A DNA stretch of 64,000 nucleotides from Burkholderia sp. BCC0322 (GTDB lineage: Bacteria; Pseudomonadota; Gammaproteobacteria; Burkholderiales; Burkholderiaceae). The position numbers and the translations under genes were made by a program. The notes under the pieces are model-generated. The model did no database searches, was not told the DNA's origin, and saw only the letters and a program-made list of their open reading frames with translations. This document shows, in pieces, positions 21,320 to 41,610 of the stretch. Positions within the stretch are counted from its first letter, which is position 1. Each line of letters begins with the position of its first letter. Location: positions 62,001 to 126,000 of the forward strand of contig NZ_CADFDU010000010.1 in assembly GCF_902833045.1 (NCBI RefSeq), given 5' to 3'.

Positions 21320-21334
21320 CGCGCGCTCGCCACC

Positions 21335-21364
21335 GAAGCGGGCGGGCACCGCCCCGTCCGCTTC
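21335..21364. other. Stem-loop between yehI-like gene and next gene
   Basis: GAAGCGG (21335-21341) is perfectly complementary to CCGCTTC (21358-21364), with further GC pairs inside. It lies 15 bases after the stop and lacks a T-run. It may attenuate or stabilise the transcript. Confidence 0.35.
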
Positions 21365-21408
21365 GACCACGCCGACATCGCCCGTCCTTCCTTGCTACGA
21401 CACCCGCC

Positions 21409-22458: not shown

Positions 22459-22966
22459 CGCGCGGGCCTCGTCCGCATTCGCACGATCGAGGCGTCGTGC
22501 ACCGCCGCGCTTCCGGCCTCGCCCGGCCCCATCGGGCTAGGCGAGGCTGGAGAAGGACGAACCGCTGTCCGCCGTCTTCGCGCGCAACGCCACAAAAGCC
22601 CGCCAGATCCTGCCGACCTCCGTTGGCGGCGACGGCATTGCTGTCCAACGAGCGCCTCGTGCCTGATTTGTTGTCAATGCTCGTCAGAATGCCGCCGCCA
22701 GCCCGGCCATATCCTTGTTTTCGGCGTCGATGCGCCGTCGTCGTGCGGGGCGTAGGCAAGGGTAGCGCTGCTGGTCAAGGGCCTCGGGCATTCACTGTCG
22801 GCGAACCGCGCCCGTGCCTCCTTGATTGGCGTGCATCTTAAATGAGCGTGCGTCGTGAAAGCTGACAAGTTCTGACATCCGGGGGGCAGGCGGCATCGGG
22901 GGCAGGAGCGCGTCGCGTGTTCGGTTATAGTGTCGCCCGATCGCAGACACCAGTACGAATCGCGTG
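22459..22966. other. Intergenic region with one strong hairpin
   Basis: No convincing gene is seen. GCCTCGCC (22516-22523) pairs perfectly with GGCGAGGC (22540-22547), a likely end-of-operon structure about 58 bases after the last stop. The short frames here lack ribosome sites and family features. The promoter of the sensor kinase should lie near the right edge. Confidence 0.5.
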
Positions 22967-25009
22967 ATGTTCCGGCTCATCTTCCTCATCCTGATTACCT
23001 GGGCCTCGGGGGCCTTCGCGGCAACGCCGATTACGCTGCCGGACGGAGGGCAGGTCAGCGTCCGCGGCGGCTGGGATCTGTTGCGCGATCCAGGTAACAC
23101 GCTCACGGTCGAGCGCATGTCGCAGCCCGAGATCGCGCGTGCGTTCATCGGCCAGACGTCGGAGCCCGCGCTCGGCTATGTCAACGGCGCGGCGTGGCTG
23201 CGCCTGACCGTGACCCGCCCGGCGAGCGCACCGCCGATGTGGCTGCTGGAATTGCGGTCGTCGCTGCTGAACGACGTCACGCTGTACGTGCCGCAACCGG
23301 GTGGCGGATACCAGCGCCACGTCGCCGGTGATCGCATGCCGGTGGCGCAACGCGACATCGCGTACCGCAACCCCGTGTTTCGCCTGGACCTTCCGGCGGG
23401 CCAACCGGTCACGCTCTATCTCCGGATCCGCAGCACCAGCACCCTGAGTTTCTCGATGGTGCTGTGGTCGCCCGACGCGTTCATCTCCGCGACGAGCAAG
23501 GAATCCTTGCTGTTCGGCCTGCTGGACGCCGCGCATCTCGTGCTGCTCGTCTCGAGCCTGTGGCTGTTCCGGGTGACGCGCGATGCGTCGTTCGGGCTCT
23601 TCGGGCTGAGCGTCATCGTGAACCTGCTCACCGCGCTCGGCGCCGAAGGCTACATCTATCAATACCTGCTGCCGGACTTTCCGGTCGCGAGCAATGCCGT
23701 CTACCTGCTCAGCTGGCTGCTCGGCACGCCCGCCGGCACGCTGTTCACCGCGCACTACCTCGGCCTGTTCAACGGGCGCTGGCGGCGTCCGACGATCGCT
23801 TTCTCCGCACTGACGATCGTCGTCGCGCTGGCGGCCGCGCCGCTGATGCTGGTCGTCAATGTCTGGTGGGTGCGCCCGCTTTACCTGTTCTGGCAGATCG
23901 CGGTCATCCTCGCCACGATGGGCGTTTCGCTCTGGCTGACTGCCCGCGGACACCGGCATGCGCGGGTGGTCGTGCTCGTGCTGCTGCTGTTGCTCGGCGG
24001 CAGTGCGCTACGTGTCGCGCGCAACGTCGGCTGGATCCCGCCGGGCCTGCTCGCCGACAACGCCGGATATCTGGGGATGCTCGCGTTCATGCTGATCATG
24101 AATTCGGCGATCAGCTCGCGCTACAACGCGATGCGCAATGCGATGGAAGCGGCGCAGGCCGACGCATTGCGTGTCGCGCGCCAGGCCGAGCGCGATCTGG
24201 AGGCCAAGGTCGCGCTGCGCACCCAGGCACTTCGGGAGGCGATGGAACAGGTGGAAGCGTCGCTCGCGATGGAAAAGCGCGCGCAGGACGAGCAGCGCCA
24301 GCTTCTGGCGACCGTCTCGCATGAACTGCGGACGCCGCTGGCGGTCATCGATGCCACGGCGCAAAATCTTGACCTCGACGACGCGGGTACCGATCCGCTG
24401 ACCTCGTCGCGCTACCAGAAGATCCTGCGCGCGACGCAGCGCTTGACGGTGCTGATCAATGATTCGCTGCACGAGGACGGGTTCGAGCTGCTGCGACGCG
24501 GCACCCGCAGCGGCGACACCCGCCTGGCGGCGCTGCTCGAGGATGCGGCCACTGCCGCCGAGGCGCTGTCCGACGGCCACCGCCTCGAAATCGACGCGAA
24601 AGACCTGCCGGACGCCTTCGTGTGTGACGGCAGCCTCACGCGCCTCGTGCTGCGCACGCTTGCCGACAATGCCGTCAAATACACTCCCGGCGGCACCCGG
24701 ATCGCGTTGCGCGGCCGGCGTGTGCCGGGCGGCGTGGAGCTGGAAGTCGAGGACGATGGCCCCGGCATTGCGCCGGCGGACCTGCCGCACGTGTTCGATC
24801 GCTTCTTCCGCGGCCGCAACGTGGGCCGCAAGCCGGGAACGGGCCTCGGTCTGCCGCTGGCGCGCCGCATGGTCGAGATGCAGGGCGGCACATTGAACCT
24901 GGTCAGTGACGTGGGGCGCGGCTGCCGGGCTACGGTCTTTTTGCCCGCGAACGCGGGCAGGGCGGCTGCCTCCGGTCAGGCGAGCATCAGCGGCGCGGCG
25001 AACGTATAA
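22967..25009 (+). CDS. 7TMR-DISM sensor histidine kinase
   Basis: 680 residues from ATG 22967 (GTG 22964 is equally possible). A signal peptide ends near 'SGAFA'. A periplasmic DISMED2-type sensing domain follows (about 20-165), then a seven-helix membrane block (about 180-385), a short coiled coil, HisKA with 'SHELRTP' (phospho-His about 451) and HATPase_c with 'DNAVKY', 'DDGPGIA' and 'GTGLGLPLARR'. It should autophosphorylate and pass phosphate to the regulator encoded convergently next door. The ligand is unknown; such receptors often sense carbohydrates or other small molecules. Confidence 0.93.
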   Translation: MFRLIFLILITWASGAFAATPITLPDGGQVSVRGGWDLLRDPGNTLTVERMSQPEIARAFIGQTSEPALGYVNGAAWLRLTVTRPASAPPMWLLELRSSLLNDVTLYVPQPGGGYQRHVAGDRMPVAQRDIAYRNPVFRLDLPAGQPVTLYLRIRSTSTLSFSMVLWSPDAFISATSKESLLFGLLDAAHLVLLVSSLWLFRVTRDASFGLFGLSVIVNLLTALGAEGYIYQYLLPDFPVASNAVYLLSWLLGTPAGTLFTAHYLGLFNGRWRRPTIAFSALTIVVALAAAPLMLVVNVWWVRPLYLFWQIAVILATMGVSLWLTARGHRHARVVVLVLLLLLGGSALRVARNVGWIPPGLLADNAGYLGMLAFMLIMNSAISSRYNAMRNAMEAAQADALRVARQAERDLEAKVALRTQALREAMEQVEASLAMEKRAQDEQRQLLATVSHELRTPLAVIDATAQNLDLDDAGTDPLTSSRYQKILRATQRLTVLINDSLHEDGFELLRRGTRSGDTRLAALLEDAATAAEALSDGHRLEIDAKDLPDAFVCDGSLTRLVLRTLADNAVKYTPGGTRIALRGRRVPGGVELEVEDDGPGIAPADLPHVFDRFFRGRNVGRKPGTGLGLPLARRMVEMQGGTLNLVSDVGRGCRATVFLPANAGRAAASGQASISGAANV

Positions 25010-25635
25010 CCGGTGCGATGGACGGTCTTCAGCGGTAGTTCCGAACCCGCCTCGCGTCGCCAGCGCTGTCGCAGACGACTGACCATCGTCTCCAGCCTGC
25101 GCTCGTCGTAGTCGACCCAGTCGAAACCGAAATCCTCGGCGATTTGCCGTCGGCTCACTGCCTTGGATGGATGCCGCGCCAACAGGGTGAGGAGGGCGAT
25201 TTCGCTTGCCGACAGTTCGAGCCGGCCGCCGACCGGCGCGGACAGCACGCGCGCCTGACAGTCGAGCCGCCAGTCGTTTGCCACCCGGCGGCCGAGTGCC
25301 TGGAGAATAGCGTCGAGTTCGACCAGTTTCACCGGCTTGACGAGATAGTGATCGGCTCCGCCGATCAGGCCGTCGATCTTGTCCTGCGTGTCCCCGCGCG
25401 CGGTCAGCATGACGATGCCGCAGTCGCGATGCCGCGCCCTGAGCCACACGGCCGCATCGAAGCCGCTCCCGTCGGGGAGCATCACGTCGATGATCGCAAA
25501 TGCGAGATCCAACGCCCGTTCCTGGAACTCCGCGACCGTACCGGCCTGATCGACGGTCCAGCCGCGTTTTTCCAGGAACGCGGCGATTTCTTCGCGCAAC
25601 TCGACTTCGTCGTCGAGCAACAGCACTTTGGCCAT
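24976..25635 (-). CDS. OmpR-family response regulator
   Basis: 219 residues. The receiver domain has the acidic pocket 'DDE' near 8-10, phospho-acceptor Asp near 50 ('IIDVMLPDG') and Lys near 101 ('LVKPV'). The C-terminal winged helix has 'SRRQIAEDFGFDW', 'LETMVSRLRQRW' and 'VHRTGYTF'. Its gene is convergent with the kinase gene and the 3' ends overlap by 34 bases, an unusual layout for a presumed pair. Confidence 0.92.
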   Translation of the reverse strand: MAKVLLLDDEVELREEIAAFLEKRGWTVDQAGTVAEFQERALDLAFAIIDVMLPDGSGFDAAVWLRARHRDCGIVMLTARGDTQDKIDGLIGGADHYLVKPVKLVELDAILQALGRRVANDWRLDCQARVLSAPVGGRLELSASEIALLTLLARHPSKAVSRRQIAEDFGFDWVDYDERRLETMVSRLRQRWRREAGSELPLKTVHRTGYTFAAPLMLA

Positions 25636-25932
25636 ACCGCTCTACCCTGGATCCGCGTTGTGTGGTTGCGGAGTCTTGGCTTATGCCTGTTCCGATCGGT
25701 GGTGCCGCCGCGTTGGATAGCGCGATGCAGCCGTCATCGGCCCCGCGTTTGCCCGCGCTTTGCCGGCGCGGGGATTTTAGCCGAACGAGGCGGCTGCGGT
25801 CGTATTTCGCGGCAAAAGATCGAGGTGCGGGACGAATGTGAGGCTGGCCCCGGCAAGCAGTGCCATCCTGTGAGCCCGACTTTGCAATGAGAGGCGCGGC
25901 GAGCTTGCCGCGCCCCATCGGGTCGTGCCGCG

Positions 25933-27870
25933 TTACTTGACGGAGCTCGCGCTGACCTTCGCGAAATCCAGGCTGCCGAAGCCGGTGTCGTCGTCCCAGC
26001 CGGCCTTCGCGGTGTAGCCGTGGCTACTGTAGCCGTTGTTGCCCGACGTCACGTCGTGGCGCAGCGACGTATTGGTCGGCAGGCCTTGGTAGAACGCCGA
26101 AGTCGGCAGGCCGAGGCTGTTGTTGTTGGCCGATTCGACGCGTGCCCAGCCGCCGACGAAAATCGGCGACGCGAGGCTCGTACCGCCGACGAGCTGGTTC
26201 GTCTGCCCGTTGATGACGATGTACGCGCCTGTCGCCTGCGCGGCGTCGAACGCCACGTCGGGCAGCACGCGCTTCGTCACCGTGCTGCCGAGCGCGGCGG
26301 TCTGCCAGCTCGGCGCGGTCTCGAACGCGCTCACGCCGCCGCCCGTTGCCCAGATCCGCACGGCGTTGTCGACCGGGTTGCCGTTGCTGTCGAGGTCCGC
26401 ATAGGCGACGCCTTCGTTCCACACGGTTTCGCCGGCCCACGTCGTGGTGCCGGTGGTCGAGAGCGTCGTGCCGCCGACGGCGACGACGTACGGCGAGCTC
26501 GCGGGCGACGACACGCTGTACTTGGACAGGTTGATCGTCGTCTTGACCGACGTGCCGTTGTACGTGCCGATATAGCCGGGCGCGCCTTGCGGTGACGTAG
26601 ACCACTGATAGACGCCTGCATCGCCGGCCGAGACCGAGAAGACTTGCCCTTGTGCGACAGCCTGCTTGAATACCGCGTCGTCGGCCGCGAGCGAGCCGTC
26701 CGAGTTGGCGGCCGTTTCGTCGAGGCCGAGCGACACGTTGATGACGGTCGCCTTGTTGTCGGTCACCGCCTTGTTGTAGGCGGCGGTCAGCGTCGCGTCG
26801 GTGAGGCCGCTGTCGTTGCTGTCGCCGTTGATGGCCGAGTAGAAGATCAGCTGTTTGACGCCGCCCGACGTGCCGATGATGTCCTGGCTGTCGAGATCCC
26901 ACTCGCCCGGATCGCCGTCGTCGGCCAGTGTGCCGGAGCCGCCCGCGACCACTGCCGTGTTGACGGTTGCCAGGCCGGCGTTCTGCGTGAAGGTGTTCAG
27001 GTCGGCGATGGTCTGGGTCATGTCGCCCCAGGTGATGATGCCCACCGTGGTGTTGGTCGCGGCGGGCAGGCCGCTCGCGTCATAGATTTTTGCGAAATCG
27101 GTCGGCTGGTGGCCGACTTGCTGCGACGCCGCTGACGCATTCTTCGAAACCGCATTCGGTTCGATGACGGCGGCCGGCGCGAAGCGGTGCAGCAGGCGAT
27201 GCGGCACGGCGGCGTTCTGCAGGCCGAGCACGGAATCGACGATCGAGCCGAGCGAGGCCGGGATCAGTGCCGCCGAATCGTTCGCGTAGACCGGCTTGCC
27301 GCGATAGTTGAAGCGCTTGATGCTCGCCTGGAAGCCGCGCTGCACGTTGCCGGCATTGCCGTCGGCGGAGATCAGTGTGTTGTTGTCAGAGACTGTGATG
27401 TTGCTGAAGCCGTTCGCCTTCAGGTGAGCGACCACGGTTGCGACCTGTGCGTCGGTCGGCGAGAAGCGCGCCTTGAACTGGGCGGGTGTGAGGTACTTGT
27501 GATAGCTCGCGCTACCCGGCTGGTTGACGTCGCGAAGGAACGTGTCGAGCTGGTCCGCGTTGCGATTCTTCAGAACCACGGTCACGTGCAGCGGCTGGCT
27601 CAATTCGAGCGGCGTCACGTGCGTATCGGTAAGCGCCGGCGTGCCGACGCTGTTCAGCGAGTAGCTGGGCGCCGCAGCGGACGCGGCCAGTGCCTGCGAT
27701 GCGCCCGCGGCCGGTGCATTGGACAGGAGGAACGCGCTGGTGCGGGTCTGGACCCAGTTGGTTGCCGCCTGGGCGGACAACGGGACCATCGTGGCTGCTA
27801 CTCCAACTGCAATTGCCGTCAGCGCAAAGCGTTGCAGGAGTTTGCGATTGACGTATTGAGTTCTCTGCAT
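25933..27870 (-). CDS. Secreted S53 serine-carboxyl peptidase (sedolisin)
   Basis: 645 residues. ATG 27870 begins a clear signal peptide (cleavage near 'SAQAA'); the longer frame adds an unrelated leader. An activation (pro-kumamolisin) domain occupies about 60-210. The catalytic domain shows the Glu-Asp pair in 'GEWDLD' (about 321/325), the oxyanion Asp in 'SAGDAG' (about 414) and the nucleophile Ser in 'GGTSLASP' (about 565). A C-terminal Asp-rich 'DDDTGFGSLDF' forms the calcium site. It is an acid-active endopeptidase, exported and self-processed. Confidence 0.94.
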   Translation of the reverse strand: MQRTQYVNRKLLQRFALTAIAVGVAATMVPLSAQAATNWVQTRTSAFLLSNAPAAGASQALAASAAAPSYSLNSVGTPALTDTHVTPLELSQPLHVTVVLKNRNADQLDTFLRDVNQPGSASYHKYLTPAQFKARFSPTDAQVATVVAHLKANGFSNITVSDNNTLISADGNAGNVQRGFQASIKRFNYRGKPVYANDSAALIPASLGSIVDSVLGLQNAAVPHRLLHRFAPAAVIEPNAVSKNASAASQQVGHQPTDFAKIYDASGLPAATNTTVGIITWGDMTQTIADLNTFTQNAGLATVNTAVVAGGSGTLADDGDPGEWDLDSQDIIGTSGGVKQLIFYSAINGDSNDSGLTDATLTAAYNKAVTDNKATVINVSLGLDETAANSDGSLAADDAVFKQAVAQGQVFSVSAGDAGVYQWSTSPQGAPGYIGTYNGTSVKTTINLSKYSVSSPASSPYVVAVGGTTLSTTGTTTWAGETVWNEGVAYADLDSNGNPVDNAVRIWATGGGVSAFETAPSWQTAALGSTVTKRVLPDVAFDAAQATGAYIVINGQTNQLVGGTSLASPIFVGGWARVESANNNSLGLPTSAFYQGLPTNTSLRHDVTSGNNGYSSHGYTAKAGWDDDTGFGSLDFAKVSASSVK

Positions 27871-28869
27871 TGTGAGCTCCGAGATTTCGACGAAGAACGG
27901 GTGCGGCGCGCGGCCCGGATCGCGGGTAGCGAAGGGCGGCCGATGCAACCTGACGCAAGCCAGAACGATCAGCAGAATTCAAGGCGACATAAGTATTCCT
28001 CCCCACCCACCATCAGAAATGGAGGCCGGTCGGGTATCGGGCTCGCGTATCGCGGGCACCGATTCTGCGCTCGGCCCTCTTGTTTGTCGGGCCCCACCGC
28101 GATCCTGCGTGCGCGGGTCCGACAATTGCTTTGGGTACAGTCCGCGGTTTGCGGATAGAACAGCTTCGATTTGCTATCTATTGATTAGGAATGCAATTTA
28201 TTTGAGTCGAAAAGACCGTATTGCGATGCCATTTGACGACCTGGGCTGCTACGGTTGTTCCAGCCGATTGCAATGCTGCATGGGACTGACGATGCAACTT
28301 CGTGTGGCGCGAGCGGTGTGGTTCGGCAAGCTAGGCTCGGCGGATGAAACCTGCCGTGCCGTCAAGCAGATCGCGATGCTGACGACGTTTCCTTGCGACG
28401 CATTGTGACGAAACGGTCCAGTCTGAAGCGAAGCTGGATGGCGGTGAGTCGAGAAACTTTCCCTCGCGGAATTAATTACGGCTTTGTGAGACGGATATCG
28501 CCATCACGATGGTGTAATCAAAACGGAAGTTATTTGTCGGGTTTTTGGTTTATTGCGCCATTCAAACTCCAATCGGCATTTATTGCGGGAAAAGATAACA
28601 AGGAAGAAAACGGAGCGTCAAATATTTTTTGATGAAATCTAAAATGTTTAGATCGAGGTTTGGCAGGGTTGCCGAGAAAGGTTTCAAAGCTTGCAGTAGT
28701 CGTAAGTAGAACGTAGGGGTGTCGAGCTGAATGCGCGGGGCGACGTGAACCGGTTCCTTGGGTGAACGTCCCTCGGGTTGGGAATCAAGAGACTCGCTTC
28801 GACGCTGTTCGTTCGAGCGTGGGTGCGCTGTAAGTACTTGGAAAGCGAGACAGCGAGTGATCTATTGAC
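27871..28869. other. Gene-poor region, AT-richer, before the IS cluster
   Basis: About 1 kb without a gene I can support. The base composition changes near 28140: long AT-rich runs at 28140-28220 and 28460-28720 contrast with the backbone. A perfect 7-bp inverted repeat ATCTAAA/TTTAGAT lies at 28637-28653. The open frames present (for example 27872-28408) have no family signal and poor starts. Peptidase promoter elements should lie next to 27870 on the minus strand. Confidence 0.5.
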
Positions 28870-30006
28870 ATTGAAAGTGGCAATACACGTGGGGCAAGGT
28901 CGTGCAACACTGTCAGCGATTTCGATACCCGGCGTGTTTCACGTCAGGTCAACACCATGTTCAGATTCTCGTCATCCGGCAGCGGCCGATGCGCATTGAA
29001 ATCGCTCTTCGGCGGCTTTGCGAAGCGTGCGTTGTAGGCTGCCATGAAGGAGGGCGCGTAAGCGTTGGCGTCGGCCACCGTGCTGATCCCGCGCAGCCGC
29101 AGTTCCTTCACGAGCCGGTCTTGCAAGGTCAGGTGCGCACGCTCGACACGGCCCTTGGCCGAGCTGCTGTTCGCGCAAAATATATCGATGTTCAATTCGT
29201 ACATGGCTCGGCCAAAGTGCGTCACGCTGCGGCCCGTTTCATGAGCCTTGACGCTACGAAACACGCTCGCTTTGTCGCTGTAGAGCGCTCCAGGTTTGCC
29301 GTAACGCTCGATGTACGCCCGCGTTGCTTCGAAATAGCTGAAAGTCGATTCGCTCGCCGTAAAGTGGAGATACATCAACCGACTCGTCGCATCGTCGACG
29401 TACACCAGCAAGGTGCACTGCGGCGCCCGGTTCTCGAACCACGCATGCTCGCTACCGTCGATCTGAATCAGTTCGCCCAAGCAGGCGCGCCGGGCCCGCG
29501 GCTGATAGACCTTCGGCGGCCGCTGCCGGCGTGGCACCCACAAACCGGCATCCGTCATCAGCCGCCGTACCGTTTCCTTGGCCAACTGGATGCCATGGCA
29601 CTCGGACAACTTCTCGCAGGCCAGCGTCGGGCCAAAATCCGCGTAGCGCTCGCGAATGATCGTCAGCGCTCGCCGAGCCAGTTCCTCGTCCAATCGCCGG
29701 TTCCCCGGACGACCACGTTTGCGCGACGTCAGTCCAACCGCGCCAGATTCCCGGTACCGAATCACTAGCCGTTCGATCTGCCGGACCGTCAGGCCCAGTC
29801 GTTCGGCCGCGCGGCCAGGCTTCAGCCCCGAATCCACTACAGCCTGGATGACCTTCAGACGGTCGAGTTCTCGCATGTTCAATGTCACCAGTGCTGTTCG
29901 GTGCATCGCCGGCTCCATGATCTGACGGTGAGCCGGCAAGCTTACCGAGGTTCAAACACGACATTTCTAAATGGCTAGAACACGACATTTCTAAAAAGCT
30001 ACTACA
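28870..30006 (-). mobile_element. Truncated ISNCY/IS1202-type insertion sequence (older copy)
   Basis: The right terminus reads, on the minus strand, TGTAGTAGC... from 30006 inward, with ATGTCG boxes at 29988-29983 and 29964-29959. These sit at the same positions (base 19 and 24 bases further) as in the complete neighbour copy. Similarity to the neighbour's transposase gene stops near 28870, so roughly the last 430 bp and the far terminus are missing. The orientation is the same as the complete copy, which abuts it. Confidence 0.8.
28944..29918 (-). pseudogene. ISNCY/IS1202-type transposase, broken
   Basis: The N-terminal HTH ('GRAAERLGLTVRQIERL'), second HTH region and DDE core are preserved ('IQIDGSEHAWF', 'LYSDKASVFR', 'GRVERAHLTL'). 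At 28944 a TGA stands where the intact neighbour has the Trp codon of 'TWRETRRVSKSLTV'. The reading frame after it still encodes RETRRVSKSLTVL before similarity ends. The copy is therefore inactivated by a nonsense change plus 3' truncation. TTG 29939 is an alternative start. Confidence 0.85.
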
Positions 30007-30011
30007 CCAAA
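30007..30011. repeat. Target-site duplication, left copy (CCAAA)
   Basis: CCAAA lies exactly between the right terminus of the older IS and the left terminus of the complete IS. It is repeated at 31655-31659. Confidence 0.8.
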
Positions 30012-30060
30012 TGTCATACCCGGATTCAGATGTCGTAGCGCCAGCTAAATACAGATGTCG
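30012..30060 (+). repeat. IS left terminus with two ATGTCG boxes
   Basis: The tip is TGT at 30012; ATGTCG boxes are at 30030-30035 and 30055-30060. It is inverted relative to the terminus at 31607-31654. Confidence 0.75.
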
Positions 30061-30127
30061 CATGTTTCTCGGCCTTTCCGTCCTTCAGCGTTGAAGCGCC
30101 GAGCCTGAAGCAGCAGGGCGCTTACGC

Positions 30128-31552
30128 TCACCCGCGGGCCTTCGCAGACCGCCGATTCGATTCCGGTTGATGTGTTTGTGAGGCAACCTGCAGGATGGCT
30201 GCTTCGATATCAGCCTCCGTGAACGCACGCTGTTTCTTGGCACCTGGCAACGATGCCTTGGCTCGTACCGGTAACCCTCGATTGGCACGCGACGGCGAAC
30301 CCGAGATCCGCCGGTTGTCGCGCTGCGCCTGGATCGCTTCAGCCACCTGCAGCGCATGACTCAGACGCTTGTGTTCGATGATCGCGCCTTGATCAACCTC
30401 CGCCAGCTTGTCGTAAAGGCGGCATCGCAATAGCTCGCCATCGGCCCGTATTTCGATCCGGCCATCCGGGTACTCCCAGACGTCGATGTAGCGATGAATC
30501 AGTTTCCGATTCTCCAGCGTATCGTCCAGCAGATACAGCACCCGGTCGTACAGCACCGTGAGCGACTTCGAGACCCGACGCGTTTCGCGCCAGGTCATCA
30601 CCCGGTCCAGATTCTCGTCGTCTCGCAGCGGCCGGTGCGCATTGAAGTCGCTGCGCGGCGGCTTCGCGAAGCGACGATTGAAATCAGCGATGAAGGAGGG
30701 CGCATACGCGTTGGCGTCGGTGACCGTGCTGATGCCGCGCAAGCGCATTTCCTTGACCAACCGGTCCTGCAGCGTCAGGTTGGCCCGTTCCACACGCCCC
30801 TTGGCCGAGCTGCTGTTCGCGCAGAACGTGTCGATGTTCAGCTCATACATAGCCCGGCCAAACTGCGTCACGCTGCCGCCGGTCTTGCCTGCGGTCGGGC
30901 TGCGGAACACGCTGTACTTGTCGCTGTAGAACGCCACCGGCTTGCCGTAACGTTCCAGATATGCCCGCGTCGCCTCGAAGTAGCTGAACGTCGATTCGGT
31001 CGTCGTAAAGTGCAGTTGCATCAACCGGCTCGTCGCATCGTCCACATACACCAGCAGCGTGCAGGCCGGCGCCCGCTCCTCGAACCATCGATGATCGCTG
31101 CCGTCGATCTGGATCAGTTCACCCAGGCACGCCCGGCGCGCTCGCGGTTGGTAGACCTTCGGCGGTCGTTGCCGGCGCGGAATCCAGAGCCCAGCATCTG
31201 TCATCAGCTTCCTGACCGTTTCCTTCGACAGCTGCAGCCCGTGGCATTCGCAAAGCTTCTCGCAGGCCAGCGTCGGCCCAAAATCGGCGTAGCGCTCCCG
31301 AATCAGGCCCAAGGCACGATGTGCCAAATCCTCGGGCAGTTGATGGTTGCTCGTATGGCCACGTCGCTGCGAAACCAGCCCGGCCGGGCCAGCAGCCCGA
31401 TACCGGGCGACCAGCCGTTCAATTTGCCGTCGACCGATCCCGAGCCGCTCCGCGGCTCGCCAAGACATCAGGCGCTGCTCGATCACAGCTTCCACGACCT
31501 TCAGACGGTCCAGCTCCCGCATGCTCATGGTGATCAGTCCAGGTTGGCCCAC
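30128..31552 (-). CDS. ISNCY/IS1202-type transposase, intact
   Basis: 474 residues. GTG 31552 has a CGGAG ribosome site; ATG 31528 is an alternative. Domains: tandem HTH N-terminus ('WRAAERLGIGRRQIERL', 'TVRKLMTDAGLW'), a DDE integrase core with 'IQIDGSDHRWFE', 'AFYSDKYSVFR' and the Glu in 'GRVERANLTL', and a C-terminal domain with a basic, Arg/Lys-rich tail. It moves the surrounding IS by DDE chemistry. Compared with the broken copy next door it is colinear but clearly diverged, so the two are related elements rather than a recent duplication. Confidence 0.92.
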   Translation of the reverse strand: MGQPGLITMSMRELDRLKVVEAVIEQRLMSWRAAERLGIGRRQIERLVARYRAAGPAGLVSQRRGHTSNHQLPEDLAHRALGLIRERYADFGPTLACEKLCECHGLQLSKETVRKLMTDAGLWIPRRQRPPKVYQPRARRACLGELIQIDGSDHRWFEERAPACTLLVYVDDATSRLMQLHFTTTESTFSYFEATRAYLERYGKPVAFYSDKYSVFRSPTAGKTGGSVTQFGRAMYELNIDTFCANSSSAKGRVERANLTLQDRLVKEMRLRGISTVTDANAYAPSFIADFNRRFAKPPRSDFNAHRPLRDDENLDRVMTWRETRRVSKSLTVLYDRVLYLLDDTLENRKLIHRYIDVWEYPDGRIEIRADGELLRCRLYDKLAEVDQGAIIEHKRLSHALQVAEAIQAQRDNRRISGSPSRANRGLPVRAKASLPGAKKQRAFTEADIEAAILQVASQTHQPESNRRSAKARG

Positions 31553-31606
31553 GATGCGCTCCGGCAGTTCGAACCGCCGCCAGCATGCGCCGAAACCCTT
31601 GAACTA

Positions 31607-31654
31607 CGACATTTCAACTTTGCTCAGATGCGACATTACAACTTTGCTCTTACA
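31607..31654 (-). repeat. IS right terminus with two ATGTCG boxes
   Basis: Reading the minus strand from 31654 inward, TGTAAGAGC is followed by ATGTCG at 31636-31631 and 31612-31607. The spacing is the same as in the terminus of the older copy. Confidence 0.75.
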
Positions 31655-31659
31655 CCAAA
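31655..31659. repeat. Target-site duplication, right copy (CCAAA)
   Basis: The same five bases as at 30007-30011. They form the exact spacer between the IS tip and the XerC-like arm. Confidence 0.8.
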
Positions 31660-31687
31660 ACTATCGATAATTTAGCTTATGTAAAGT
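31660..31687 (+). other. dif-like XerC/XerD recombination site
   Basis: Two 11-bp arms flank a 6-bp centre: ACTATCGATAA (31660-31670), TTTAGC, and TTATGTAAAGT (31677-31687). The right arm matches the classical XerD arm TTATGTTAAAT at 9 of 11 positions. The left arm keeps the ATAA that abuts the centre in XerC arms but is divergent further out. The 11-6-11 architecture and polarity are those of chromosomal dif, plasmid pdif, or the attachment site of a Xer-using phage. The IS tip lies 5 bp from the XerC side, the spacing reported for ISAjo2-like members of the IS1202 family. Confidence 0.6.
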
Positions 31688-31734
31688 CGGGCTGCTAGCG
31701 AAACCAGTACTTCTGTCAGGTTGAAGAAAACTGT

Positions 31735-31752
31735 TTGTAAACATACTTACAA
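31735..31752. promoter_or_regulatory. Operator-like inverted repeat upstream of the HTH gene
   Basis: TTGTAA (31735-31740) and TTACAA (31747-31752) form a perfect inverted repeat with a 6-bp spacer, 32 bases before the HTH gene start. Another TTAC lies just downstream. It is a candidate autoregulatory operator. Confidence 0.4.
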
Positions 31753-31784
31753 TCGCTTACACAGTTTCGCCTCTCGCAACGCCT

Positions 31785-32324
31785 ATGAATGCTGCCACCT
31801 GCCGTCACGGCGCGCTAGACGATTTTCTCGCGCTCACGGACGGCCTGTCCATCGTTCGAATCGCGCAAATACTCCGCTGCTGCACCCGCACCGTGCGCAA
31901 TTACGTCGCAGGTCGCTCACCGATCCCGTGGCATCGCATCGAAGTCCTGCGCTTACTGGCGCTCGAATCCGACCGCGCAGCACATGAGCCAACGGCGTCC
32001 AGCGCACGCGTCGACGCGCCGTCGCCGGTTCGCGCGAACATCGAGCCAGACCCGGACGCCCCGGACGTGCCGCCCGATGAAATGCTGGCGTGGGTCGGTG
32101 TTCATGCGCCGCACTACCTGTCGAGCCAACGCAGCCTCACGCACTACATTCGCGGCTGGAACGTCGTCGATAAAATCCGCCGCGCCAAGCGCGCCGGCAC
32201 GTTTGCGGCTGTCCTCGTGCGATGGCGCACCGTGTCGCTCGAACTGCCGCGCATGTGGCGAGCCGGTCCGCTATGGTCCGGAATCGGGCCTCCAGCTTAC
32301 ATCCCGAAAACAAGCGAGCCGTAA
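31785..32324 (+). CDS. Small phage-type helix-turn-helix protein
   Basis: 179 residues. The N-terminal 60 residues contain a HTH-like segment ('IVRIAQILRCCTRTVRNYVAGRSPIP') resembling small regulators of temperate and filamentous phages (DUF3653-like). The rest is Pro/Arg-rich with a 'YLSSQRSLTHYIRGWN' stretch. The family call is tentative. It is the first gene beyond the dif-like site and has an operator-like repeat upstream, so a phage regulator left at a Xer attachment site is plausible. Confidence 0.5.
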   Translation: MNAATCRHGALDDFLALTDGLSIVRIAQILRCCTRTVRNYVAGRSPIPWHRIEVLRLLALESDRAAHEPTASSARVDAPSPVRANIEPDPDAPDVPPDEMLAWVGVHAPHYLSSQRSLTHYIRGWNVVDKIRRAKRAGTFAAVLVRWRTVSLELPRMWRAGPLWSGIGPPAYIPKTSEP

Positions 32325-34020: not shown

Positions 34021-35094
34021 TCATCCTTTCCGGAAGTGTGTTCTGTGCCGACTCGTCGTCGGATCGTCGCGCATCTCCATTTCGAGCGATGACGTGAAAC
34101 CGCCGCTTCCGTCGATCCGAGACACAACGCGTTTCACGAGCCACGGCGTCGAATCGATATCCGGTTTGAAGCCCTTCGCGTTCACGGTCATTTCGGGGTA
34201 CACGTCGGGTCGGCCGAGCGCGAGCGTCATATCGAACGTTGCCTGTCCGCGCTGCGTGCGCGCGTATTCAGCCTTGGCCGCCGCTTCCGCATCAGCGCGC
34301 GAGCCGTAGATTTCCGGTAACAGCTTCGTGCTGCGGTTGTTTTCGCCTCCGACGATCACGGATTCTTGCTTGCCCTTCTTCGACGTGTGCCAACGCGCGC
34401 GCACCGACGTGTAGCTTTCGCGCTGCGAGACGTGATAGCGATACGAATCGCCCTTCGCCTTCCGGATCTCGAGCGTCGGCAGCGGCTTACCACTCGCGCT
34501 CGTGCCCGCGCCGATCGACATGAACAGCAGGCGCCCATCCTTGACCGTCATCACCGCGTCGTACCGCTTCGCGAGCCGGGTCAAAAATGACATGTCGCTT
34601 TCGCTAGTCTGGTCGATGTGCGCGATCCGGGTTTTCGCAAGCGCGTCGCCGAGCGTAGGCGTCAACTTATGCCGGGCGGCAATGGTCTTGACGATTTCGC
34701 CGATCGTCTGTCCGTGCCAGCTTTTATCGCGCCGCTCGTGCATGGCATCCGTCATCGACGCCGAGCGCGCGCTCACCGTGATCCGGTCAGGCGCACCGTG
34801 GAACTCGAATTCATCGATCGTGAACGTGCCTTTGTCCACGAGCGTTTCGCCCTCCCACCCGATCGACAGTTTCAGTTCGGCGCCGCGCTTCGGCAGTTCG
34901 AGATCGCCGCGCGTGTCGTCCAACACCAGACTGAGCGAATCGGCTTCGTCAGCGCGGGATTCGCTCAACGTGAGATAGACGAGATACGGCGCGATCGTGC
35001 GTGACAGGTCGCGCCCGTCGAGCGTGATGCGGTAGTCGGCGTATGGGACGAGGCGCCGCGTCGGGAGCTTGGTCGATTGCACAAAATCCGCCAT
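34021..35094 (-). CDS. P2-like phage late control protein D (tail protein)
   Basis: 357 residues from ATG 35094; the upstream frame is Arg-rich and not protein-like. The sequence is typical of the P2 GpD/contractile-tail hub family ('DYRITLDGRDLS', 'DSLSLVLDD', 'KRYDAVMTVKDGRLLF', 'GRPDVYPEMTVNAKGF'). In P2-like phages D is the last tail gene after T and U, and exactly that order is seen here. It appears intact. Confidence 0.9.
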   Translation of the reverse strand: MADFVQSTKLPTRRLVPYADYRITLDGRDLSRTIAPYLVYLTLSESRADEADSLSLVLDDTRGDLELPKRGAELKLSIGWEGETLVDKGTFTIDEFEFHGAPDRITVSARSASMTDAMHERRDKSWHGQTIGEIVKTIAARHKLTPTLGDALAKTRIAHIDQTSESDMSFLTRLAKRYDAVMTVKDGRLLFMSIGAGTSASGKPLPTLEIRKAKGDSYRYHVSQRESYTSVRARWHTSKKGKQESVIVGGENNRSTKLLPEIYGSRADAEAAAKAEYARTQRGQATFDMTLALGRPDVYPEMTVNAKGFKPDIDSTPWLVKRVVSRIDGSGGFTSSLEMEMRDDPTTSRHRTHFRKG

Positions 35095-35098
35095 TGCC

Positions 35099-35605
35099 CT
35101 ACCCCTTCTTTGCCTTCGGCTTCTTCGGCTTGACGTATGGCGGCGTCGCACCGGGCGGCGCCTTGTCGAGCGATCCGCCCGTCGGTTCGCTCGTCGCGGC
35201 GCCGCCGTCAACCGACGCCGCGAGTGCGCGATCGTCCACACGCGTGATCGTCAGCGTGAATTCGATTTTCTGCGGCGCACCTAGGATCGTGAAATACGAG
35301 TGCGTTTCGTGTAGCTCGTCGATTACGTATGCACCGTAGACGACGCCGCGCCCGTCCACGAGCACATACGCATCACCCGTGTCCGCCATTTGGGAAATCA
35401 GGTCCATCGAGATAGGCGAGCCGAGCACGCCCGTGGCGATCATGCCCTGCATGGTGAACGTGTCATCGCCCGGCCCGGCGAACTGGCGCGCGTCACGCGC
35501 CCCCACGCGCGAATTGCTCGCAAACTTCCACGTGCGCCGCCGCTGCATTTCGCTGAACGGCGCCGTGAGTGTCCCGAAAACGAACTGTCCGAGTGAGAGC
35601 AGCAT
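35099..35605 (-). CDS. P2-like phage tail protein U
   Basis: 168 residues from ATG 35605. It belongs to the P2 GpU tail completion family ('MLLSLGQFVFGT', 'RKFASN'-like segment, 'ILGAPQKIEFTLTITRVDD'), with a Lys/Pro-rich C-terminal tail. It is four bases upstream of D and eight downstream of T on the same strand, so the U-D arrangement of the prophage late operon is preserved. Confidence 0.88.
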   Translation of the reverse strand: MLLSLGQFVFGTLTAPFSEMQRRRTWKFASNSRVGARDARQFAGPGDDTFTMQGMIATGVLGSPISMDLISQMADTGDAYVLVDGRGVVYGAYVIDELHETHSYFTILGAPQKIEFTLTITRVDDRALAASVDGGAATSEPTGGSLDKAPPGATPPYVKPKKPKAKKG

Positions 35606-35612
35606 AGCGACC

Positions 35613-37022
35613 TCAGTCCGACAGGCGCGAGCTGACGCGACGACGATCCTCGCGCTCGACCTGATCAATCACGCGGCGCACGGCCGCCTCGAATTCCTTC
35701 ACGTTGTCACCATTCGCTACGTTGATCGTGATGTAGTAATTCCGCGTTCCATTATCCACGGGCGCCGACGGCGCCGCGCTCGCGGCCGACAGCGGCGGCC
35801 GGGTATCGATCAGCGGTCGCATTTCGAGCGGCGACGGCGCAGCGTTCGCTGTCAGCGCGCCGAACGTGATCGATGCGGCCCCGGCGAGCCGCGCAGCGGC
35901 ACCGGCTACGCTCGCGCGCTCGCCCTCGATCCCTTGCGCCGCGCCCTGCCCGATGAAGCCGCCGAGCGCCGCGAAAACACGGCTCGGGCTATGGATGCCG
36001 AGCTTTTCCTTGAACCAGCCGATCGCGCTTTCGCCGACGTTGTGCAGCGCCGTGCGTAACGCGTTCATGCCGTTCGTGATCCCGTTCACGAGCCCGTCAA
36101 CGATGTTGCCGCCGATTTCGACAAAGCGAGTCGCGAGCCCGGACATGTACGACTTGATGCTGTCCCAATGCCGAACCACCACGCCGAGCAGGGTCCAGTT
36201 CATGAAGAAATCGAGTATCGCACCACCGGCACCCATCGCCGTTTGCTTGATCCAGTCCCACGCCGCGCCCGTGGCCGCTTTGATATCGTCCCAATGGCGC
36301 ACGATCGCGCCGACGATCGTCCAGTTCATGAAGAAGTCTGCGACGGCCTGCGCAGCACGCAGCACGCCGGATTTGATCAGTTCCCATATCGCGAGCGTGA
36401 TCGCCTTCAGATCGGCCCAATGATCGACAATGAAGCCGACTACGGTCCAATTCATCAGGTAGTCGGCAATCCAGCCGCCGACCGTTTGCACCGTCCGCTT
36501 GATGCCGTCCCACAGCTTCGCGAAGAAGGCGGAGATCGGTTTCCAGTACCGATAGATGAGGTATGCCGCCCCGGCGATCACCGCGACGACAGCGGTAATC
36601 GCAAGTCCGATCGGGTTCATCAGCAGCAGGCGGCCCACCGCGAAAATCATGCCGCCGAACGCGCGGAATGCCCCGCCCACCCGGGCGAGTGCCCCGCCTA
36701 CCCGACCGAGTACACCGTTCAGAATTCCACCCTGGCCCCCGAGCGTCGACATGCCATATTGCACGAGCGCAAACGGGCCGATGAGCGCCGCGAGCCCGAT
36801 CGTCAGCGAGCCACCGACCACGAGCACCGCGCCGAGCGCCGCAAAGCCGATCGCCAGTGCGCGCGCCGTGCCCGCGTTCCGCTCGGTCCATCCGCTCACG
36901 CGCTCGATCAGGCTGGCCGTCAGTTCGAGTCCGCGGTTATACAGCGGCAAGATTTTCGACCCTAGCTGTTCCTCTAGAATCGCCTTCTTCGACAACGCGT
37001 CGATTTCCTTACCGGCCTTCCC
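35613..37022 (-). pseudogene. P2-like phage tail tape measure protein, 5' end deleted
   Basis: The C-terminal about 470 residues of a tape measure protein remain. They include hydrophobic segments, repeated amphipathic 'NWTxVGxIVxHWxDIK' units (about every 37-40 residues) and a C-terminal 'EAAVRRVIDQVEREDRRRVSSRL'. The frame stays open to about 37022 and then meets coding sequence for a portal protein on the other strand. P2-family T proteins are considerably longer, so the N-terminal part is missing. Confidence 0.85.
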
Positions 37023-37024
37023 CG

Positions 37025-37696
37025 TCGAAGTACACGCGCCGGAAAACGGATCTGGTCAATTTCGTGTTCATCGATGGTTTTCTCGACCGCCACCAGTTCG
37101 ACACGGGCTCGATCTTCCAGTTGATGGAGCCGGACGTGAATCAGGAGGTGTACGGGATGCCCGAGTACATCGCATCGCTGCAATCTGCGTGGCTGAACGA
37201 ATCGGCCACGCTGTTCCGGCGCCGCTACTACGCGAACGGCTCACACGCCGGGTTCATCCTGTACCTGAACGACCCGAACATGGACCCGGACGACGTAGAC
37301 GCGATCCGGAAGGCATTGCGCGACTCGAAGGGAATCGGCAATTTCCGGAACCTGTTTCTGCACTCGGCCGCGCGAAGCAGCGGCGGCGAGAAAGGCGCGG
37401 TCCAACTGATCCCGATTTCCGAGGTCGCAGCGAAAGACCAGTTTTTCGACATCAAGAACGTAACGCGCGACGACACGCTCGCGGCCCATCGCGTTCCGCC
37501 GCAGTTGCTTGGCATCGTCCCGAGCAATACGGGCGGGTTCGGCGCGGCCGACACCGCTGCGCGCGTGTTCGGGCGGAACGAAATCATGCCGCTGCAACAG
37601 CAGTTCCTGAAGATCAACGAATGGGCGGACGAGGAAATCGTCCGATTCATGGACTACATCGTGCCGCCGGCACTGGCAACCACGCCCGTCCTGTAA
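37025..37696 (+). pseudogene. P2-like phage portal protein Q, 5' end deleted
   Basis: About 223 C-terminal residues of a PBSX/P2-type portal protein ('KYTRRKTDL', 'GSIFQLMEPDVNQEVYGMPEY', 'NESATLFRRRYYANGSHAGF', 'AHRVPPQLLGIVPSNTGGFG') start abruptly at the junction with the tape measure gene. Roughly the first third of the protein is lost. The C-terminus and stop are intact. Confidence 0.87.
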
Positions 37697-37830: not shown

Positions 37831-38906
37831 TTATTGAATTTGCGAAACAAAATCAACTACATTTTTAAGCGATTCCGCATAATTCTTGGCGGGAATGGGC
37901 ACCGAAGTACCGTCTGGCATAACATAATTTCCCGATTCTGGTAATTTATGCAATGGTATTCCGAGGCTTGCAGACACTTTTGCGGATGTATGAAAATCCT
38001 TTGTATTTGCAATGAAATAATCCTCCCAATCAGCCTTGCTACTAATTGGCCCACTGCAGGGAGCAAAAAGAGACGGGTAGTTTACATACTGCTGATAACA
38101 GAATTCAACCAACTCGTTTCTAACAGATTCAAATGCATACGCAACGCCAGAATTGGTTGTAAAATTATTAAATACAAATTCATACAAAACTGGTAGCGGG
38201 AGACCAAAGCTCTTTGCCTGACTATTAAAAGTCAGCATGTCCTCAGCATACGTTTTCAGTGCCGCCGATGGATACTTTCCGTAGAGCAGCATCATGAGAC
38301 TTTTGCCGCCTTCGAGCGAACTAAAATCAGCCATCATTGGCACAATTAGCCGATCAGCGGACACCAGCGCCATTTGAGTGCATATCGAAAAGCTCGGGTT
38401 GCAGTCTATAAAAACGGTCAGCTTTTCGTATTTTTCTCTATCAAATTCCAAATCACAAAGGCGACGAATAGCCGTCATGTATTCTGCCCAAGCTTTTTAT
38501 TCGCCGGATTGATGACCGCATAGTTCAATGCGAGCGAAAGCGATTCAAGAAATTAATCACCCGCAATCAAGTATAGATTTTCAGGAATTGAGTCATTCAG
38601 CGGGTGAACTTGAATCGAGCACGAACTTTTAATGCTAGTAAAACCTGAATTACCTCGAAGGAGTCAGTCCATGAATCCGACAATATTCTTTCGAGTGCTC
38701 TGAGACTGTAATCTTTGGTTTGTTACATAGCCCTTGTGGCCGCCACCCAGTAAGAATTGAGAAATATTTGCCTGTGGGCACAGATCAATCACGATCACTT
38801 GTGTGTCTGGATGATTGGCAGCATAAAGGCAGGCAGCATTCTGAGCGAGTGTCGTTTTGCCGACTCCCCCCTTGTTGTTGTAGAACGCGTAGATTGTTTG
38901 ACTCAT
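37831..38906 (-). pseudogene. ParA-family ATPase, multiply broken
   Basis: The start ATG 38906 begins a ParA/MinD-type ATPase with the deviant Walker A 'NNKGGVGKTT' (about 9-18). Three lesions are visible. A TGA at 38664-38666 replaces the expected Trp of 'GFMDW'. A TAA lies at 38553-38555. A frameshift in a five-base T run at 38494-38498 moves the rest ('AWAEYMTAIRRLCDLEF...' to the end) to another frame. The restored protein would be about 358 residues. AT-rich codon use marks it as foreign. It is a partition or phage/plasmid gene, now dead. Confidence 0.85.
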
Positions 38907-39385
38907 TTTTGGTCTCTCTCTTATGTTACGGGACTCGGCCGATGCGGCTCGGGCAAAGCACTTTATCAAAAAACTTACCAGCAGCGTCAGATTCACTACC
39001 GTGTGAATCGGTCGCCGTCGAACGAGCGCTGCCCCCGGAGTTTCCGCTATGCGTCTAATGTAGCGCTTCGTGCGTCTGGCTGCGTCTGAGAATTTCCGCC
39101 GAAAATCGCCGAACCCCGCCCCGCGCGGGCCCGCGCCGGGCGGGGTTGTTGCGTCGGAAAGTGCCCCGTTTTTGCAGCGGGCAGGCGCGGAGGGGACTGC
39201 GCTATCTGGGGGCCGGGACGCGGGGCCAGCCCGCCCCCTCGCACCGTGCAGCAGGCGCCCGCCGAGCCCGCGTCCGGCCCGCCACGGGCACGCCGACGAC
39301 CCGCCCAAGGGTCGGGACGCATTAAGCGCCGAACCGCCCAGAAGCCCGGAAATCGCGCCGAGCGCGGAGTGCCGGTTTCGGGGTG
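38907..39385. other. Intergenic region with a very GC-rich long inverted repeat
   Basis: No gene is supported. AACCCCGCC (39112-39120) pairs perfectly with GGCGGGGTT (39139-39147), and the loop is itself a 14-bp palindrome (39123-39136). Together they form a nearly continuous 36-bp hairpin. The following 200 bases are extremely GC-rich, unlike the AT-rich parA remnant to the left. The parA promoter should be near 38907-38960. Confidence 0.5.
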
Positions 39386-39431
39386 TGATATCACTTTTTG
39401 ATTGCACGTTGATATCATTTTCTGATATCAT
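39386..39431 (+). promoter_or_regulatory. hicAB promoter with three TGATATCA operators
   Basis: Three perfect TGATATCA palindromes lie at 39386-39393, 39410-39417 and 39423-39430. They overlap a plausible promoter (TTGCAC 39402-39407, 18-bp spacer, TATCAT 39426-39431) just before hicA. HicB antitoxins autoregulate through such palindromes, so these are likely its binding sites. Confidence 0.65.
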
Positions 39432-40944: not shown

Positions 40945-41610
40945 TCACCTCCCGACTCGCTCACGCGCGTTCATGATCGCCCCGCGCAGGTCGGCACCCT
41001 CACCGGACACGGGCTTTTCGATCACGTCGAACACGTCAACGCGAAACACCGGCTGTTCGCCAGTCACGTGCATTTTGCTGATAGTGACGTTGCTTTGAGC
41101 CGCAAGCCAGTCGAGCAAATCGGCATCGTTTGACCTGGCTGCTTTCTTCTGCTCGCCGACCGCTTTCAGCGCCTTGGGCGTGACCTTCGTCTTACCGGCC
41201 GCCGCCGCAATCTCTTTCGCCGCTTGCAGGTGAGCAACCGCATTCGCGCCTTGTTCCTTCATGACCTTGACCGCGCTCGTCGCCGAAACTGCCCCCGACG
41301 TGACCATTTCCTTGATCGGCTTCGGCGCGGCCACGAGCGTGAGCGCGTTTCGAATCGAGGCGACGTTGCGCGTCAAGCGTCGCGCGATTTCCTTCTCATC
41401 GATTCCGCGGCCGATCAGGCGTTTTATCACCATCGCCTCGCCGAGAAGCGTCAGGCGGCGGCCGGAGTTATCGAGAATCAGGCCGAAAATCCGATCTTCT
41501 TCGGTGGTGCCGCGCACCTCATTGATCACCGGCAACGCTTCGATGCCTGCGCCCTCGCGATTCGCGAGCAACACTGCATCCCACCGCGTATGACCGTCGG
41601 ACACGTACAG
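40945..41610 (-). pseudogene. ParB-like partition/DNA-binding protein, 5' end lost
   Basis: About 221 residues remain. They contain the end of a ParB nuclease-like domain ('DGHTRWDAVLLANREG'), then a HTH-rich region ('LLGEAMVIKRLIGRGIDEKEIARRLTRNVASIRNAL') and a plasmid-ParB-type C-terminal half. The frame opens at GTG 41604, but family members carry further N-terminal sequence. Upstream of about 41610 the DNA belongs to a TonB-dependent receptor gene on the other strand, so the start region is gone. Function as a partition protein is doubtful. Confidence 0.7.

Follow-up and report, generated by a model that had tools for sequence, protein, structure and literature searches.

In a 64,000-nt stretch of Burkholderia sp. 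BCC0322 (contig NZ_CADFDU010000010.1, positions 62,001-126,000; hereafter the window, to which all window coordinates refer), a dif site, the Xer recombination site of dimer resolution, probably serves as a landing pad that is used from both sides: by insertion sequences (IS) of the IS1202 family on the side of its XerC arm and by an integrase-less P2-like phage on the side of its XerD arm. On a broader scale, it is likely that widespread P2-like phages of Burkholderia and relatives have given up their integrase, enter dif via the host recombinases XerC and XerD (XerCD) and rewrite the spacer and XerD arm of the host site, while on the XerC side, a target that renews itself, IS1202-type elements accumulate by order of arrival. 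The coordinates of the features are collected in Table 1.

Direct reading of positions 31660-31687 gives a 28-bp site of the 11-6-11 layout, ACTATCGATAA-TTTAGC-TTATGTAAAGT, the sole match to a loose dif pattern in the window. By three local signs the site lies at a terminus, and on this evidence it is probably the dimer-resolution site of this replicon. The cumulative GC skew of the window has its maximum some 2 kb to the left of the site (bin 28001-30000). The FtsK-orienting polar sequence (KOPS) GGGNAGGG, with five motifs in all, switches orientation at the site, the single motif to the left being on the plus strand and all four to the right on the minus strand. Window positions 19274-29352 are 93% identical to contig C3 of the comparison genome G018, shorter blocks match G003, G024 and G045, and each of the syntenic stretches fetched from these four genomes contains a single dif-like site in the same region. 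A sequence-only reading that had preceded this work described the 28-mer correctly, and the two checks that it proposed, for a skew switch and for conservation in homologous chromosomes, both came out in its favor, the former within the window and the latter with the qualification that the four homologous termini retain dif with spacers that differ from that of the window. On the XerC side of the site, G003, G018 and G045 carry IS transposase remnants, and G024 has, by eye, a mutated IS-like end.

Across 61 Burkholderia genomes, the strict pattern CGATAAN6TTATGTNAANT detects 87 sites in 45 genomes, one to three per positive genome, and none with the reversed control, a difference not attributable to chance. 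Similar patterns gave nine matches against none in the control (four genomes) and 14 against one (seven genomes, one of them without a match). Relatives mostly have one dif-like site per large contig, although two lie on G059:C2; a looser pattern finds one site on each of five contigs of G062, every one with a different spacer. The spacer TTTAGC recurs in dif-like sites at G045:C3:257352, G019:C3:425612 and G043:C57:102008 and in the IS locus L026, and therefore spacers may move between replicons. In L015 (position 3190 and upstream), viewed together with G062:C2:1087794, a second, damaged dif-like site shares the spacer TTTATC with the intact one and bears an IS stack. The distance between the two sites is about 43 kb if L015 belongs to contig C2, and the damaged site may be a dif that has fallen out of use.

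To the right of dif the window contains, judging from gene content and homology, the relic of a P2-like phage, which the sequence-only reading had not reported. Positions 31608-32300 are 84.8% identical to G025, and prophage homology to G025 and G055 stops at 41613. At 37010 the tape-measure remnant runs into the portal fragment, and about 19.4 kb that G025 has between them has been lost. The D protein encoded in the window is 64% identical to that of phage KL3 and 57% identical to that of phage KS14. The product of the gene closest to dif, a member of the phage protein family phrog_10187, has a weak partial match to a transcription regulator family.

The phrog_10187 gene was found at 18 places in 15 of the 61 Burkholderia genomes. 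A site with an 11/11 XerD arm is included in 17 of these 18 loci, and in 16 of the 18 places dif has the gene, or what remains of it, on its XerD side (L145 and L152 being the same site). The arrangement recurs in viruses. Of 46 virus loci with the gene, 45 were checked. In 27 of these the sequence extends 180 bp or more upstream of phrog_10187, and every one of the 27 has a XerD arm scoring 10/11 or better, 95-131 bp away from the gene; an IS end on the XerC side is present in 13 of them. A tblastn search with the gene against phage records returned nothing; virus contigs of another collection do carry it. In G028, two parts of one phrog_10187 gene are located 35 kb apart on the same strand (C28:28970 and 64398), as if a phage-sized insert had split the gene.

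Four relatives, G025, G055, G052 and G045, contain prophages of 36.6-39.0 kb that start with a full dif and end with a far half-site comprising a spacer and a XerD arm, without XerC arm, preceded by similar phage sequence. The two junction spacers of G025 differ (TTCATG and TTCACG), and in G025, G055 and G045 the XerD arm next to dif reads TTATGTAAAGT, whereas that of the far half-site reads TTATGTAAAAT or TTATGTCAAAT; G052 has TTATGTCAAAT at both ends. These spacers and arms are compatible with an exchange at the border of XerC arm and spacer. Contiguous attP-like sites, which are expected of free or tandem phage DNA, were found in L213, L224 and L263. The core is surrounded by an inverted repeat whose own halves match in 9 of 10 letters in G025, G055 and G045 and in 8 of 10 in G052, against 6-9 when halves are swapped between prophages; because the halves of G055 and G045 match equally well when swapped, and the left half of G052 does so with two foreign partners, the repeat is modest support only. 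A folded attP like that of CTX phage was looked for by eye, and no full XerD-arm complement was seen nearby. In G025, synteny with G018 returns 6.9 kb past the far junction, which in G018 corresponds to 8 kb past its dif; a search for phage-free sister strains with the flank right of the second G025 junction yielded only short, weaker matches besides G025 itself. The G025 prophage has family matches to holin, capsid, scaffold, both terminase subunits, portal, ParB-like and gpA-type replication genes, open reading frames of a tail and baseplate region (by eye) and, at its far end, a small helix-turn-helix gene. The P2-type tail, capsid, terminase and gpA genes are thus present mostly in G025, and the window retains a subset.

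In the P2 layout a tyrosine integrase gene lies next to attP. No tyrosine integrase domain (PF00589) was detected in the prophage intervals of G025, G055, G052 and G045, nor in any of the 34 virus records examined (33 of the 46 phrog_10187 virus loci and L213; the 13 omitted were mostly shorter contigs), with 14 of 14 control genomes positive; the serine recombinase domain PF00239 was not found in three prophage intervals. Since this is unlike the P2 layout, "P2-like" refers here to the morphogenesis genes only. It is nevertheless conceivable that the phage integrates at dif by an unrecognised recombinase of its own rather than by host XerCD, given that several prophage genes are without known function and that the attP inverted repeat could be the site of a phage protein. 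We consider this unlikely in view of the domain searches and of a core that consists of XerD arm and spacer, with G025 spacers that fit a crossover at the XerC-arm/spacer border. Lower still is the probability that only the IS matter and that the phage sequences right of dif are an unrelated prophage remnant in a plastic terminus. The terminus is indeed much rearranged among relatives, and the window prophage is a relic without a second junction; an unrelated remnant, however, would account neither for the recurrent position of phrog_10187 beside the XerD arm in bacterial and viral loci nor for four intact prophages with matching far half-sites.

Entry of the phage at dif via the host system would proceed as follows. 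A P2-like temperate phage without integrase would have recombined with dif on its XerD side, host XerC and XerD being the likeliest recombinases. The attP would consist of spacer and XerD arm inside the inverted repeat, without a XerC arm, so that one junction would regain a full dif, made of the host XerC arm and the phage XerD arm, and the other would keep only a half-site. The window spacer and XerD arm may accordingly have come with the phage: the combination of TTTAGC with a phage-type XerD arm suggests that the present window dif is a host-phage hybrid. Drift was considered as the source of the spacer difference between the window and G045 (TTTAGC versus TTCACG between identical arms); replacement by a phage fits G025, whose two junctions differ in spacer, and may also have taken place in the window.

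On the XerC side, the window contains two IS elements of the same transposase family in the same orientation, whose products score 518.6 bits (younger element) and 454.5 bits (older element) against the ISNCY transposase model NF033594 (cut-off 250). The younger element is complete, with the outer ends TGTAAGAGC... and TGTCATACC... and the motif ATGTCG twice at each end as a second inner repeat; D150, D211, E255 and Q262 of its transposase are invariant across 21 aligned sequences. A search of PDB sequences with the transposase gave no match. By its transposase, ends, target duplication and distance from dif, the element is a member of the ISAjo2-type group of the IS1202 family. The tip of the older element (...GCTACTACA) stops at 30006 and comes to lie 5 bp from the XerC arm after removal of the younger IS and one CCAAA. 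The earlier description of the locus, namely a complete IS ending 5 bp from the XerC side with CCAAA duplicated, and an older tip at the same distance and in the same orientation, was accurate in these respects.

That the two layers arose by duplication or recombination of a single IS is highly improbable. Both elements belong to one family, and the unequal duplications of locus L041 indicate that stack recombination or assembly error can occur; the layers, however, are only 76% identical over 997 bp and therefore represent separate insertions, and the younger one has its own exact duplication. In addition, the older IS (28898-30012) is 90.9% identical to an IS that directly adjoins dif in G055, which is the state expected before the younger IS arrives. 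The outer part of the older IS, up to 29352, lies within the block common to G018 (93%). Two independent insertions, as proposed from the sequence alone, are hence the reading we retain.

The window was combined with 80 loci (the best 80 of 122 relatives) into a census of 81 loci, of which 66 contain 97 IS tip matches. For each tip, the best XerD-arm match at distances of 0-119 bp was recorded. Matches of at least 10/11 lie 22 bp (31 tips) or 23 bp (17 tips) inward of the tip, plus one at 46 bp, a second match within an already counted end. Seventy of the tips head a transposase match and 27 do not; three of the 70 were removed by hand (L021, L037 and L045, with repeats within an end or a duplication behind N). 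The remaining 67 ends comprise 47 that are 5-7 bp from a dif-like site (XerD arm at least 9/11), three by a weak site, 13 next to another family member's right end, one at a contig edge and three elsewhere. Among 49 distinct target sites (51 before merging), the distance between XerC arm and tip is 5 bp in 31 and 6 bp in 18. Most of the information resides in the XerD arm; the inner XerC arm scores at least 5/6 in 39 sites and at most 2 in five, and two (L011 and L058) have no recognisable XerC arm. Plasmid cer-type sites have spacers of 7-8 bp, and in Pseudomonas (L056, L057 and L059) IS copies were seen by sites with spacers of 7-8 bp, the XerC arm being shifted by 1-2 bases. As the XerD arm is the most informative part and the XerC arm is absent or shifted in a few sites, XerD may be the main guide.

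An exact 5-bp duplication accompanies 28 of the 51 dif-adjacent copies, against 19 of 990 when duplications were dealt to other loci. In a sample chosen independently of IS, 30 dif sites taken from the strict-pattern search (one per genome), an IS end occurs at 4-7 bp from the XerC arm in 21 and on the XerD side in none; three of the nine unoccupied sites (L188, L197 and L208) resemble decayed ends by eye. Targeting of dif by this IS type, in the published geometry, is thereby strongly supported at the level of sequence comparison, and the earlier argument that fixed spacing implies targeting has held. It is scarcely credible that the IS read neither dif nor Xer proteins and that the terminus merely tolerates insertions. 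Terminus regions do collect mobile DNA, and three IS ends lie elsewhere; mere tolerance, however, gives no spacing fixed within 1-2 bp, no single orientation and no preference for one side.

Two of those three ends, L013 and L034, from different species, share a non-dif flank that extends more than 100 bp upstream of the IS tip, contains CTGTGGATAA and ends in ...AATCAACA, followed by 7-8 bp and the tip; it is possibly the end of another element or another target. Separately, L018, L052 and L077 have lost the IS tip upstream of the transposase, and one shared sequence (...GGAGGCGACCATATAAG) stands in its place, which looks like the insertion of a further element into the end of the IS.

Stacking proved to be frequent. 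By a script rule, 16 of the 28 copies with an exact duplication directly abut the left end of another IS, and three more stacked copies (L014, L023 and L026) were recognised by eye; a cruder script counted 28 stack junctions in 27 loci, of which L048 is spurious by eye. With 21 of 30 sampled sites occupied, IS beside dif and stacks of them are commonplace in Burkholderia, and the statement of the sequence-only reading that a nested arrangement is unusual does not stand. In 22 stacks, the older layer was compared with the younger transposase, and homology of more than 300 amino acids was found in five, shorter pieces in five and none in 12; L019 and L041 had less than 300 bp to search, and distant older types would be missed. 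The four stacked pairs that align over roughly 1 kb or more (L016, L027, L045 and the window) are 72-89% identical, and near-identical end remains occur in L019 (56 bp, 98%), L033 (32 bp, 97%) and L037 (29 bp, 100%). Target immunity, by which stacks would avoid copies of the same element, was considered; these near-identical ends weigh against it, and RecA-dependent loss of identical repeats would give the same picture. Older tips without a transposase were also considered as a different type of element; in 14 loci they begin like ordinary IS ends and most soon enter other DNA, and they are therefore taken as remnants. In L033 (6568) and L076 (5919), the older IS end breaks off about 29 bp from its tip, and the sequence goes on with GGGGGTGC in both loci, which suggests a preferred second insertion point.

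A mechanism of the following kind would account for the XerC side. An ISAjo2-type transposase would place its element in a single orientation at 5-6 bp from the XerC arm and duplicate about 5 bp, probably after docking on XerCD-bound dif. Because the 28-mer and one copy of the 5 bp survive the insertion, dif can be hit again, and repeated hits would therefore produce a stack in which the youngest element lies beside dif and older, often broken elements are pushed outward. The window would represent two such layers.

Several observations weigh against the two-sided use of dif proposed here or narrow it. The strict pattern has no match in 16 of the 61 genomes, and with the looser pattern 16 genomes had 53 matches, 11 of them in G069, versus 22 for the reversed control, so that some looser sites are due to chance. 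The window dif was located from local skew, KOPS and synteny only, and the comparison genomes are mostly drafts without completeness values. On the IS side, 15 of the 81 loci have no readable IS end, and the search for copies in non-dif targets, suggested earlier, found them as exceptions: the ends of L001, L013 and L034, three of the 67, are without a dif-like or IS neighbour. The stray ends and unreadable loci together mean that some insertion elsewhere is possible. By script, 23 of the 51 dif-adjacent copies lack an exact 5-bp duplication, some being truncated or having a 4-bp match only. In the stacks of the cruder script with both tips visible, the last four duplication letters are equal in only 10 of 19, and the L041 and L061 stacks have unequal duplication letters. 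On the phage side, L149, a weak phrog_10187 homologue (E 2e-6), lies on the XerC side, and L143 is a phrog_10187 piece without a site. No matching far half-site was found in the prophage stretches of G035 and G050, and no second att site (attR) right of the relic within the window. Finally, a recombinase may be too diverged for PF00589 or PF00239, and the virus records may be fragments.

Table 1. Features of the window around dif, with strand and remarks.
Feature	Position	Strand	Remarks
Older IS1202-family element, right part lost	28898..30006	-	Intact left end TGTAGTAGC... (read on -)
Transposase fragment of older IS, 331 amino acids	28944-29939	-	Inside 28898..30006
CCAAA, outer target-duplication copy of younger IS	30007..30011	.	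Abuts older IS tip
Younger IS1202-family element, complete, 1643 bp	30012..31654	-	TGT...ACA ends; terminal repeats 15/26 (own count)
Transposase of younger IS, 474 amino acids	30128..31552	-	DDE D150, D211, E255; Q262 (E+7)
CCAAA, inner target-duplication copy	31655..31659	.	Between younger IS and XerC arm
dif XerC arm ACTATCGATAA	31660..31670	+	Arm of G045 identical
dif spacer TTTAGC	31671..31676	+	TTCACG in G018, G024, G045; possibly of phage origin
dif XerD arm TTATGTAAAGT	31677..31687	+	Form found beside phage gene in G025, G055, G045 and in attP-like sites L213, L224
attL, the flank of dif toward the phage, including half of the attP inverted repeat GGGCTGCTAGC	31688..31784	+	
phrog_10187 phage gene, 179 amino acids	31785..32324	+	Function not known; adjoins dif in relatives
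P2-like tail genes of relic prophage	34021..36995	-	
Tail gene D	34021-35241	-	
U-like tail protein	35099-35668	-	
End of tape measure T	35613-36995	-	
Portal protein fragment	37010..37696	+	Joined to tape-measure remnant
Two open reading frames matching different parts of ParA-like partition family (phrog_164)	37831..39431	-	
ParB-like partition gene	40945..41604	-	

The IS side of this picture extends a known system, the ISAjo2-type group with short (3-5 bp) target duplications, of which ISBcen27 comes closest. Siguier, Rousseau, Cornet and Chandler (2023; Plasmid 127:102696), going by the title, reportedly describe an IS1202 subclass that targets XerCD recombination sites. ISAjo2-type members of the family insert in a single orientation at a distance of 5 bp from the XerC arm and create a 5-bp duplication, and a Q at E+7 is the family mark of their transposases (PMC10132070); the window IS shares with this group the TGT/ACA ends, the second inner repeat and the DDE residues with Q at E+7. 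Harmer et al. noted that the sites of ISBcen27, an element from Burkholderia, are only very loosely pdif-like and that a different consensus might apply (PMC10132070). Two of the three sites listed there (e.g. AATGTCGATAA TGTTGA TTATGTCAAAT) resemble the Burkholderia dif consensus obtained here, and the census data support their suggestion of a different Burkholderia consensus. The present results differ from the published account, as far as its text was accessible, in that dif-like sites number one to three per genome and in that stacks are not described there. Targeting of dif by IS is thus already published, and in the literature searched, itself seen in part, no description of stacked IS1202 elements at dif was found; Siguier et al. 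2023 may contain one.

On the phage side, the closest parallel is provided by the Xer-exploiting mobile elements (IMEX), which have no integrase of their own and use host XerC/XerD (PMC4246890). The prophages described here likewise have dif-derived att flanks (in four relatives, the window keeping attL only) and no integrase of their own that could be detected, features on which they would group with IMEX. The IMEX vibriophages differ in being small and filamentous, whereas the phage proposed here is P2-like and tailed, 37-39 kb in size, with an attP that lacks a XerC arm. Among P2-like Burkholderia phages, KL3 and KS5 encode an integrase, the site of KL3 being a threonine tRNA gene, and KS14 is maintained as a plasmid, with a Gin-like serine recombinase, a ParA-like gene and no tyrosine integrase (PMC3091744). 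KL3 and KS14 have P2-like morphogenesis genes in common with the window phage. KS14 was examined as a carrier of the same attP and rejected, its genome having no XerD arm above 9/11. No P2-like phage at dif was found described in the literature searched, most subscription papers being outside the reach of the search.

Taken at this strength, the results suggest that weak-looking Burkholderia IS targets in the literature are real dif sites. The IS target survives insertion and is reused, which gives the stacks a built-in time order with the youngest element next to dif, and IS1202-type ends are then of practical use for locating dif in genomes with several replicons. IS1202-family transposases are TnsB-related according to the literature, and the question opens of how such a transposase, lacking Tns-type helpers, would locate a site covered by protein, via contact with XerC or with XerD. 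If the phage side is as proposed, host-Xer integration would extend from small filamentous phages to P2-like tailed phages of 37-39 kb, and such phages could explain the changes of spacer and XerD arm by which the dif sites of close relatives differ.

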